From NCBI GenBank assembly GCA_005223085.1, contig NJBP01000082.1:1-6201 (forward strand): a stretch of DNA of 6,201 bases, read 5' to 3'. Source of the DNA: Candidatus Aerophobetes bacterium Ae_b3b (GTDB taxonomy: Bacteria; Aerophobota; Aerophobia; Aerophobales; AE-B3A). The position numbers and the translations under genes were made by a program. Of the stretch, positions 2,962 to 6,201 are shown in pieces. The notes beneath the pieces were generated by a model. That model did no database searches. It was not told the origin of the DNA and worked only from the letters and a program-made list of their open reading frames with translations. Position 1 is the first letter of the stretch. The number at the start of each line of letters is the position of its first letter.

Positions 2962-5820
2962 TCAGCCATTATTGTCAACTTCACTAGATTCAGTTCCTGT
3001 AAACCATTTTCCTATGATTGATTTTGCCTCTTGAGAGGGTACGTAGCTTCTATCATTCGCAGGTTTTTCATCAGCCCAATGGAAAAAATAGATACCCTGG
3101 AGATAGTTTCCCCCTTCGAATTTACCATTTACTATCTGTTTCTTACTCCATACTTCATAAAGCGCTTTGTATGCTAAGTATTGCTCCTCGAAATTAGACT
3201 CACCCAGATACCAAGACCAAGGCTGGTATGTACAACCTCTTTGACTGGCGTAGCCAGCTTCGGTCACCAGTATAGGCTTGTTCATCCTTTCTTGCCACCT
3301 GTCCAAGGTAGCGACCCACAGTTGCCAGCCATCTAGCAGATCTTCATAAGAAGGATTATGATATCCGTCCTTGACTTCAGCCCAAGGTTGGTACCAATCG
3401 TCTCTGCGATTGATTGGAAAGTAGAAATTCATGGCGATAACATCTAATTTATCCCAGAACGGAACGGTCTCATAAGCATCAAAGTTAGAAGCAAAAACAA
3501 TTACTCCTTGGTAATGTTTTCTTGTATTATCAATAATTTGCTCCCATTCTTCTTTATATTTATGAGTAGAATTTAGTTCGACACCAATTACAAACTGTTC
3601 TACTTCATTCTTTTGTGCTAGTTTCGCATAGTGTTCGATGAACCCGCTGTAATTCTCAAACCATAAATCCCAATCATCCGGTCTGATCATGCCCATCCAC
3701 TCACCCTTTCTTTGATGCTTAAGGTTCACTAGTGGTTCGAAAAGAACGTTGAAACCTCTTTTGTGTAATTTGTTAATAATATATTCTAAAGATTCATCAG
3801 AAGCTGTTCTTTCTTCATCTACAAATATGGATGAAGAGTTAATGTTCTTCTGATAAAGTACAGTTTTTAGTTTTACCCATTCTACTCCTACATCTTCCCA
3901 ATGGTCTAGTTCTTTGTTTATTTGATAAGAAAAATATGTATCTTTTGAGTATGCAACCAAATCTATTCCCTTTTGAAAACTTCTTTTGGCCAAAATTACT
4001 TTTTCTTCAAATGATTTTTCTTTTTCAAGTAGATCATAAATAGAACGAAATTCATATCCCATGTCTCTTAAAGAGTTTATTATTCTATTCAAGGATTTTT
4101 CCCCGAGTTCTTGATCTCTAAATAGATAAGGATGATAAAAAAAGGATATTGAAGGGTCTTCAAAACAATCATAAATTTTTTTGGCATTAGTTATTATTCC
4201 ATTGATAGATTCCAGGGAAGACAGGGAATATAACTCAAAAGGACTAAAAATAGTATTATCCCTCTTAAATATAAAAGGCACATTAATGCCATTCCTATCA
4301 TCATATATTATAGGAAAAATTTTTTTGAAAATTTTGTAGTCTACCTCACTTGCTTTATAGTGAGGGGTTTCCCATATATCTGTACTAAGCTTCGCTTTTT
4401 TCAAGATATTTAAAGCACTGATTACTCTTCTTTGAGCGAATTCTTCACTATCTCCTTCAATAGGTTTATTTTTAGATTCATCCCAGAATTCAAAATCAAT
4501 TCCAGTTTCACCGTCATATTGATGAGTATATCCATGTAAGACAGGTACTCCATTTTTAGAGATTAATAATCTAAGAGAATGTAAAAAATCTATATCTTGA
4601 TCTATTGTCAAATCCATCTCTTTAGCTGGGTTGATATATCTGGGTATTATACCAAAATGGAATGGAATGTTCTCACTGAATAAATAATTCCCAAGATCAT
4701 TCAATGGTTGCGTATTCCTATAAGTGTATTGATTCAAATCTTCTAATCTAATTAGAGCAGTTGCCTGTTTTTCATGGTGACCAAAAGTTTCATGTAGTAC
4801 ATTAAAAAAAGGAATTTGTTCATCCAGGTAAGGAACAGCAGGAGGCAAATAGGAAACATATAAGAAATTCTCATTTGCATTTACAATAGCAGGATTTCTT
4901 TTTCCAGTTTCATCATCAACTAACCATGCCAATACTTCAGCTTTTGCTGGGTTTGTAAGGTGTACGAGTGATGTATCGGTGGGGTTTAGTCTGAAGTCAT
5001 AGTTTCGGTAGCTTATTCTATTAAAATCCCTAGAATGCTTGTCAGAAACTCTAAAACCGAGTTTTCTGGTATTTAATTTCCAAGGATGATAATTGATCCA
5101 TAAGACTTCTTTGGTGGTATGATTAACATCATTTATCAATGCTCTGGGAATCCTGATACGATAATTTTCCCCAATGTACATCAAGACGTCAAAATTATCA
5201 ATTTCTCGCTTTTCATAATCTTGAACCAACTTCATATGGGTATTAATATCCCAATGAGAGGCAATCAAATCTCTAAACAACTCAGCTCTCTCTAAGGTGG
5301 TAAGAGGACCGTCATTTTGAAAAGCTTCTGTGTATAATATAAGGACATTTTCTATTCTGGGATTAGTTTCAGGGGTTTTCTTGGGAAGATACCCTCTTTT
5401 ACTCAAGATCTCAGGTATATCGGCATCTTTCGTGTCTTCAATCGGTTCATACTCTCCTATTAGTCCTTTTTGAACAAGCTCATCACCAACATTTTTTACT
5501 TCTTCTTGGCTACCATTCACATCCACAATTACTCTGGTGAATTCTTTACCATCAACTCTTGCTTTTGTCAGGTATGGAAAATAACCAGCCCCTTCTAATC
5601 TTATTCGTACTTCTAGCGCATTTTCTTGGCTAAGGTACGAATTAGCCAAGAGGTCATATTCTATTCTATCCAGAGAAGTTGCAGATGCTGCGTTTGCCAG
5701 TAAAGCTAAACTAATCCCCAGGTTAAGGATCTGTATCCCAATACTATATAGAATTGAATGACTTTCTTCATTAGCTTGATAGCCGCCACCAACCATATCG
5801 TCAAGATTGCTTCCTATCAC
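2962..5820 (-). CDS. Exported SPOR / DUF2334 deacetylase-like / GH113-like glycoside hydrolase fusion protein
   Basis: A 952-codon ORF from a GTG start. Residues 23-47 form a hydrophobic export segment ending ANAASA. Residues about 54-122 resemble a SPOR domain (ENALEVRIRLEGAGYFPYL, then DGKEFTRVIVDVNGSQEEV), a fold known to bind denuded peptidoglycan glycan. Residues about 158-345 form a Rossmann-like region I do not recognise. Residues about 355-600 match the DUF2334 polysaccharide-deacetylase-like family: RLEDLN with D361 as likely metal ligand, HGYTH with H429 and H433, ETPHY (484-488) and FYHPY (561-565). Residues about 605-945 resemble a GH113-type TIM barrel, with candidate acid/base E748 in VIGVELN and nucleophile E854 in VTEAGY. 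Both modules keep plausible catalytic residues. An extracytoplasmic role in deacetylating and cleaving a surface polysaccharide is inferred; the substrate is unknown. The GTG has purine-rich AGAGGGGGAAGG upstream but gives an acidic, K/R-free n-region, so the start or frame is doubtful. glmS lies 187 bases upstream on the same strand. Confidence 0.8.
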   Translation of the reverse strand: MIGSNLDDMVGGGYQANEESHSILYSIGIQILNLGISLALLANAASATSLDRIEYDLLANSYLSQENALEVRIRLEGAGYFPYLTKARVDGKEFTRVIVDVNGSQEEVKNVGDELVQKGLIGEYEPIEDTKDADIPEILSKRGYLPKKTPETNPRIENVLILYTEAFQNDGPLTTLERAELFRDLIASHWDINTHMKLVQDYEKREIDNFDVLMYIGENYRIRIPRALINDVNHTTKEVLWINYHPWKLNTRKLGFRVSDKHSRDFNRISYRNYDFRLNPTDTSLVHLTNPAKAEVLAWLVDDETGKRNPAIVNANENFLYVSYLPPAVPYLDEQIPFFNVLHETFGHHEKQATALIRLEDLNQYTYRNTQPLNDLGNYLFSENIPFHFGIIPRYINPAKEMDLTIDQDIDFLHSLRLLISKNGVPVLHGYTHQYDGETGIDFEFWDESKNKPIEGDSEEFAQRRVISALNILKKAKLSTDIWETPHYKASEVDYKIFKKIFPIIYDDRNGINVPFIFKRDNTIFSPFELYSLSSLESINGIITNAKKIYDCFEDPSISFFYHPYLFRDQELGEKSLNRIINSLRDMGYEFRSIYDLLEKEKSFEEKVILAKRSFQKGIDLVAYSKDTYFSYQINKELDHWEDVGVEWVKLKTVLYQKNINSSSIFVDEERTASDESLEYIINKLHKRGFNVLFEPLVNLKHQRKGEWMGMIRPDDWDLWFENYSGFIEHYAKLAQKNEVEQFVIGVELNSTHKYKEEWEQIIDNTRKHYQGVIVFASNFDAYETVPFWDKLDVIAMNFYFPINRRDDWYQPWAEVKDGYHNPSYEDLLDGWQLWVATLDRWQERMNKPILVTEAGYASQRGCTYQPWSWYLGESNFEEQYLAYKALYEVWSKKQIVNGKFEGGNYLQGIYFFHWADEKPANDRSYVPSQEAKSIIGKWFTGTESSEVDNNG

Positions 5821-6007
5821 TTCACCTTCCCCCTCTATTTTTGGAATTCTCTCTCATTTATGAGCTTTACGACTACGACAACGGGTATACTGAGAGGCGT
5901 GTACCCTCTGAAGTACTTGATTTAAAAGGAAAACGGCCTATTCTTCCAATTATTTCCTTTTCTAGTGATTTACCCAGATAATCTAACAATTTATGATATT
6001 TTTTGCC
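5821..6007. other. Gap between glmS and the large hydrolase ORF
   Basis: 187 bases with no supported gene. On the minus strand there is an 11-codon frame (MRENSKNRGGR) whose TGA falls just before the GTG start. It has no ribosome binding site and is not called. An imperfect inverted repeat at 5888-5915 (AGAGG paired with CCTCT, outer TACT with AGTA) has no T run after it, so it is not a convincing glmS terminator. I found no promoter with both hexamers close to consensus. Read-through from glmS is therefore possible. Confidence 0.5.
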
Positions 6008-6201
6008 TTATTCTACAGTAACTGATTTTGCTAGATTTCTTGGTTTATCTATTTCACACCCTCTTTCCTTTGCGATGTGATAGGCCAACAATTGCAAAGG
6101 TACTACATTTATAACTGGAGATAGTTCTTCTATTGTCTCTACCGTAGGTATAATATAGTCTTTATCTGTAAGTATATGCTTGAGGTTTTTGCCGTTATCT
6201 G
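6008..6201 (-). CDS. glmS: Glucosamine--fructose-6-phosphate aminotransferase (isomerizing), C-terminal end
   Basis: Only the last 63 codons and the TAA stop are inside the window; the gene continues past the right edge. GlmS makes glucosamine 6-phosphate from fructose 6-phosphate and glutamine, the first step toward UDP-GlcNAc for peptidoglycan and other amino-sugar polymers. The visible part is the end of the C-terminal SIS (isomerase) domain. It includes [20 protein letters not shown] and the near-invariant terminus [13 protein letters not shown], which matches the well-known [13 protein letters not shown] ending of the family. The N-terminal glutaminase domain and any glmS ribozyme or riboswitch would lie outside the window. 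The gene faces the same way as the large hydrolase ORF and ends 187 bases before it. Confidence 0.95.

Follow-up and report, generated by a model that had tools for sequence, protein, structure and literature searches.

What kind of enzyme is encoded by a single open reading frame of Candidatus Aerophobetes (phylum Aerophobota) that joins a deacetylase-like domain to a mannanase-like hydrolase, and on which polymer would it act? The frame encodes 952 amino acids, starts with a GTG at position 5820 and occupies positions 2962-5820 on the minus strand of the window, that is, of the whole 6,201-nucleotide stretch analysed. Its features are given below together with what supports each of them; residue numbers refer to the encoded protein.

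6008..6201, minus strand: partial glmS homologue (GlcN-6-P synthase), of which only the 3' end lies within the contig; match to the complete glmS of a genome of the same genus (G003)
5825..5835, minus strand: Shine-Dalgarno-like GAGGGGGAAGG upstream of the GTG start of the fusion gene; read from the sequence
2962..5820, minus strand: fusion protein, SPOR-like / Rossmann / DUF2334 / GH113, 952 amino acids; open reading frame and homologues
5680..5820, minus strand: residues 1-47, signal-peptide-like hydrophobic helix ending in NAASA (AxA-type site); sequence, and helix 18-47 in the AF2 model
5455..5661, minus strand: residues 54-122, SPOR-like domain, sub-threshold; Pfam, profile comparison and AF2
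4774..5361, minus strand: residues 154-349, Rossmann/ThuA/class I amidotransferase-like domain preceding the deacetylase; predicted-structure comparisons
4021..4773, minus strand: residues 350-600, DUF2334 deacetylase-fold domain; Pfam, conservation and fold matches
2986..4008, minus strand: residues 605-945, GH113-type TIM barrel with E748 as acid/base and E854 as nucleophile; Pfam and alignments

The frame is kept over its full length in two other Aerophobota genomes (64-65%), and the gene occurs in 4 of the 17 genomes that make up our small sample of the phylum. A copy 80% identical to the Aerophobota gene lies on a 3.3-kb contig labelled Heimdallarchaeota (L008:439-3294), which is probably mis-binned. 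Searches of phages yielded only GH113-like pieces and no full-length relative, plasmids gave only partial matches, and an NCBIfam search with the window protein returned chance matches only. GH113 matches from E. faecium and Pantoea in the plasmid search were set aside, their contexts being unrelated. Elsewhere in the window, positions 3-2545 hold ordinary genes (PmbA/TldD C-terminus, BtuR/CobO adenosyltransferase and phosphofructokinase); the phosphofructokinase gene adjoins the polysaccharide cluster in G003 as well.

Both enzymatic domains proposed by the first-pass annotation are present in the frame, with scores far beyond chance: Pfam identifies DUF2334 (PF10096) at residues 355-581 (E=3.4e-40; 138 bits against a cut-off of 26) and GH113 (PF22612) at residues 626-899 (E=4.2e-46; 158 bits against a cut-off of 27). 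Judged by its signal-peptide-like N-terminus, the protein looks like an exported one; the same segment of the homologue in G003 (L004) has a Lys-rich n-region. Pfam domains and N-terminus together bear out the proposed picture of an exported protein in which a deacetylase precedes a hydrolase, both from families other than those of PgaB and PelA. The SPOR-like domain, placed by the annotation at about residues 54-122, finds support in homologues, profile comparison and predicted fold, but scores below the Pfam cut-off of 21 for SPOR (PF05036), both with the whole protein (E=0.12, 13.1 bits) and with the domain alone (E=0.0044, 17.8 bits; best homologue 4.5e-5). Profile comparison of the region with E. 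coli RlpA/FtsN/DedD gives a probability of 69%, and the AF2 model, at low confidence (pLDDT about 50-78), contains at residues 65-117 a helix-strand-strand-helix in SPOR-like order, SPOR domains being β-α-β-β-α-β (RNP-like). We regard residues 54-122 as a probable, not a certain, SPOR domain.

For the deacetylase, D361, H429 and H433, the residues singled out by the annotation, are invariant in 36 DUF2334 sequences, as are E360, H563 and R358, and the invariant motifs include WETPHY and DYEFWDE. D361/H429/H433 are the predicted metal triad (Asp-His-His, HxxxH), and the order of the motifs suggests that E360 serves as base and H563 as acid. By their order, the invariant residues correspond to the base, metal triad and acid of Agd3 (D377; D378/H510/H514; H668; PMC7229062) and of NDST1 (D319; D320/H389/H393; H529; PMC10864358), and both enzymes lose their activity when the counterparts of the metal ligands, base or acid are mutated (PMC7229062, PMC10864358). 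The position of the base is occupied by an invariant Glu here, whereas it is Asp in Agd3, NDST1 and CE4. R358, located two residues ahead of the putative base, may be likened to H526 of PelA (PMC12022489).

The likeness extends beyond the deacetylase domain. Modelling of residues 150-605 on the basis of 36 sequences gave a high-confidence model (pLDDT 87.8; pTM 0.87), the top Foldseek matches of which are human NDST1 (9f6z, E=1.7e-11) followed by fungal Agd3 (6nwz, E=2.1e-9). These alignments span both domains with a large rmsd of about 11 Å, and the likeness is hence one of fold and domain order. Over residues 350-605 the model matches CE4 enzymes with Z-scores of up to 19.4 (3qbu; rmsd 3.0 over 221 residues), the DUF2334 domain model exhibiting the distorted barrel of CE4/CE18/CE21-type deacetylases. 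With the whole-protein model, both domains are matched at Z 14 by PelA (9cgy; Z=14.2, rmsd 7.1 over 357 residues) and NDST1. Matches to other DUF2334 proteins begin near residues 157-200, well ahead of the Pfam domain, because the Rossmann/ThuA-like domain (154-349) is part of the unit; this domain appears to be an analogue of the N-terminal domain of NDST1, the α/β/α CBM of Agd3 and the mixed α/β domain of PelA. Hence, as predicted by the models, Rossmann and DUF2334 domains form one two-domain unit (154-600), and the solved folds closest to it are those of NDST1 and Agd3 (CE18), not that of PgaB. The annotated DUF2334-type deacetylase is thus supported by its fold, yet not as a lone domain. 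Like NDST1 and Agd3, the unit places a Rossmann-like or α/β/α domain ahead of a deacetylase with D/H/H triad and His acid; unlike them, it is prokaryotic, shares only about 10% identity, has Glu where their base is Asp, and is joined to GH113 and not to a sulfotransferase.

Comparison with the two fusions invoked by the annotation leads to the same distinction. E. coli PgaB (CE4 + GH153) is likewise exported, places an N-terminal deacetylase before a C-terminal TIM-barrel hydrolase and belongs to an operon with a GT2 synthase. However, its hydrolase is from another family, the SPOR-like and Rossmann domains are extra in the Aerophobota protein, BLASTP between the two gives no match, and neither CE4 (PF01522) nor PgaB-type GH153 was found in the fusion protein by Pfam at E up to 1. 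PelA (CE21 + GH166) also combines hydrolase, deacetylase and a ThuA-like mixed α/β domain, with a structural match over residues 154-607, but carries its hydrolase, of another family, at the opposite end and acts on α-1,4-GalNAc. Consistently, Pfam found no GH114/GH166-type hydrolase ahead of the deacetylase in the fusion protein, the hydrolase being the C-terminal GH113. PgaB and PelA are functional analogues of the fusion protein rather than sequence relatives.

The C-terminal domain aligns with solved GH113 mannanases (phmmer), such that E748 and E854, both highlighted by the annotation, fall on the acid/base and the nucleophile, respectively. Both are kept in 17 of 17 GH113 sequences; in the 5yli group, one PDB sequence variant, E854 aligns with an Ala. 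Structural alignment with the endo-β-1,4-mannanases AaManA, BaMan113A and 5ylh gives 20-26% identity; the AF2 model of this domain is of low confidence. In contrast to these mannanases, the Aerophobota domain constitutes its own long-branched clade in the GH113 tree and has Phe at position 799, where the others have Gly or Ala; this leaves room for, but does not prove, a changed substrate. Since the synthesis-linked members are not united in one supported clade of the tree, we refrain from proposing a common origin of the pairing of GH113 with polymer synthesis. Our literature searches did not find GH113 combined with a polymer-synthesis context.

Such a context is what the gene neighbourhoods provide. 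In the window, the glmS 3' end lies upstream of the fusion gene on the same strand, separated by 187 nt. In G003 the order is nucleotidyltransferase, GT2, WecB, GlmS, GNAT and fusion gene, and in G002 it is GT2 synthase, WecB, fusion gene and GlmU-like gene. Further downstream in G002, two genes after the fusion gene and with a start overlapping the end of the GlmU-like gene, a 949-residue exported DUF3131 protein with a weak polysaccharide-deacetylase match is encoded (L005:7931-10780). The GT2 is a predicted processive membrane synthase with DxD, TED and QxxRW motifs. No recognisable WecB and none of this GT2 were found in the window's own MAG (88.6% complete), and by analogy with G003 we assume that both fall in the assembly gap past the contig end. 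The GT2, WecB, GlmS and nucleotidyltransferase genes beside homologues strongly support the role in polymer processing that had been proposed from the domains.

DUF2334 proteins of this subfamily are also associated with synthases outside Aerophobota. Two peptide patterns, applied to 84,980 species genomes, yielded 50 DUF2334 loci, 40 of which have a same-strand GT2 beside DUF2334, mostly within 300 nt (QxxRW in 38). DUF2334 is found in Aerophobota, Bipolaricaulota, Bacteroidota/Ignavibacteria, Acidobacteria, Actinomycetes, Proteobacteria and ANME archaea, and in most cases polymer synthase genes lie next to it. WecB, a UDP-GlcNAc 2-epimerase, is encoded within 10 kb of DUF2334 in 17 of 39 genomes where 0.44 would be expected; the Poisson p of about 2e-21 is only indicative, since the genomes are phylogenetically non-independent. 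WecB accompanies none of eight divergent extra DUF2334 copies. Five Bipolaricaulota-type loci have a separate GH113 gene near DUF2334, located after the GT2, and on one Streptomyces plasmid wecB, GT2, DUF2334 and a separate GH113 gene are neighbours. In Bipolaricaulota, genes for VTC-domain and CotH proteins come after the GT2-GH113 genes (L030:12925-17136). The DUF2334 proteins of Ignavibacteria and Acidobacteria, with about 1,320 residues or more (L011:7824-11783, L014:6633-11681 and similar), carry GH42-trimerisation-like or GHL6 regions, which hints at further fusions of deacetylase/hydrolase-like type.

A link to a known system comes from a Comamonadaceae plasmid (L059) encoding, in a row, WecB, an NfrB-type GT2 (E=8.5e-152), DUF2334, an NfrA-like porin and DUF4434. 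This is the gene set of the E. coli Nfr system (NfrB-NfrA-YbcH-WecB, a ManNAc-type exopolysaccharide), to which it adds DUF2334: YbcH of E. coli MG1655 (L060:4092-4982), the third gene product of nfrBA-ybcH, is a DUF4434 protein (E=1.5e-69). YbcH has been described as a putative Nfr scaffold, and its family pairs with DUF2334 in the Comamonadaceae locus; we found no informative match of DUF4434 to a solved structure. The available excerpts of the Nfr papers propose that NfrB polymerises UDP-ManNAc, and that a ManNAc polymer is made from the UDP-ManNAc of WecB; within these excerpts DUF2334 is not mentioned (PMC8669469, PMC8669472). The Aerophobota loci share with Nfr a GT2 synthase and WecB. 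However, the E. coli operon is without DUF2334, neither NfrA nor DUF4434 was observed on the Aerophobota contigs, which are short, and the GT2 of Aerophobota shows no specific likeness to NfrB: it is a divergent family that, by its phmmer scores, is marginally nearer to PgaC (1e-5) than to NfrB (0.003).

Taken together, we favour, with reasonable though limited confidence, the view that the fusion protein is the extracytoplasmic deacetylase and endohydrolase of a synthase-dependent exopolysaccharide system, acting on a β-linked HexNAc polymer that is probably ManNAc; activity and substrate are deduced from the observed domains, residues, predicted folds and neighbourhoods, as are the identity of the polymer and the order of deacetylation and cleavage. 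UDP-GlcNAc would be supplied via GlmS and the nucleotidyltransferase and epimerised by WecB to UDP-ManNAc. The membrane GT2 synthase would then polymerise, and pass outward, a β-linked HexNAc chain, probably with ManNAc. The Rossmann + DUF2334 unit would remove N-acetyl groups, using a metal on D361/H429/H433, E360 as base and H563 as acid, and the GH113 barrel would cut β-manno-type linkages via E748/E854, either to set the length of the chains or to release them. A tether to glycan strands may be provided by the SPOR-like domain. Inverting GT2 enzymes form β linkages; this, the manno configuration conferred by WecB, a deacetylase that needs N-acetyl groups and a family of β-mannoside hydrolases jointly point to a β-ManNAc-containing polymer. 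The substrates named in the annotation (GlcNAc polymers, mannans, peptidoglycan) thereby narrow to an N-acetylhexosamine polymer, most likely one containing ManNAc, with mannan and peptidoglycan less favoured.

Since the Aerophobota GT2 is not NfrB-like, it is WecB, together with the mannanase character of the GH113 family, that speaks for ManNAc, and the marginal proximity to PgaC therefore leaves some weight on a GlcNAc-based, PNAG- or chitin-like polymer made and processed by the same enzyme logic, with WecB serving another glycan or an occasional side branch. Ignavibacteria GT2s, too, score nearer to PgaC than to NfrB, GlmS and GlmU-like genes would supply UDP-GlcNAc, and 22 of the 39 genomes have no adjacent WecB. 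We nevertheless consider a GlcNAc polymer rather unlikely, given that WecB adjacency is far above expectation and kept in both Aerophobota arrangements, that GH113 members of known activity are β-mannanases, and that the protein has neither a PgaB-type hydrolase nor a sequence match to PgaB.

The mannanase relationship could also be taken to indicate a secreted catabolic enzyme, with DUF2334 deacetylating and GH113 cutting the backbone of acetylated environmental mannans or similar polymers; characterised GH113 enzymes are indeed degradative, and that of E. faecium lies within a sugar-uptake cluster. With polymer synthesis genes, rather than uptake or other degradative genes, as Aerophobota neighbours, and with DUF2334 recurring beside GT2 synthases, this appears very improbable. 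Least probable of all, to a degree that we would hardly expect it, is peptidoglycan remodelling, in which the SPOR-like domain would target the enzyme to septal glycan to be deacetylated and cut. While the CE4 fold includes peptidoglycan deacetylases, the SPOR match stays below threshold and has no counterpart in the matched part of other DUF2334 proteins, the context is exopolysaccharide synthesis and not division, and GH113 is not known to have muramidase activity.

Returning to the favoured β-linked HexNAc system, it is tempting to go one step further, and to propose DUF2334 as the deacetylase of widespread, hitherto undescribed prokaryotic systems that make partly de-N-acetylated β-ManNAc polymers, a counterpart of the NDST/Agd3 unit, with the GH113 domain fused to it in Aerophobota being an endo-β-mannosaminidase, an activity not known from that family. 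We offer this wider proposal tentatively, as one that may well turn out otherwise. What the locus probably encodes is a PgaB/PelA-like strategy assembled from unrelated or remotely related parts within a synthesis locus. DUF2334 is essentially unstudied and nearly absent from the literature, yet recurs beside polymer synthases. Its tie to UDP-ManNAc supply provides a concrete, testable substrate hypothesis and connects to the unsolved chemistry of the N4 glycan receptor of E. coli, and its relationship to NDST1 suggests that the heparan-sulfate N-deacetylase unit has prokaryotic relatives in exopolysaccharide loci.
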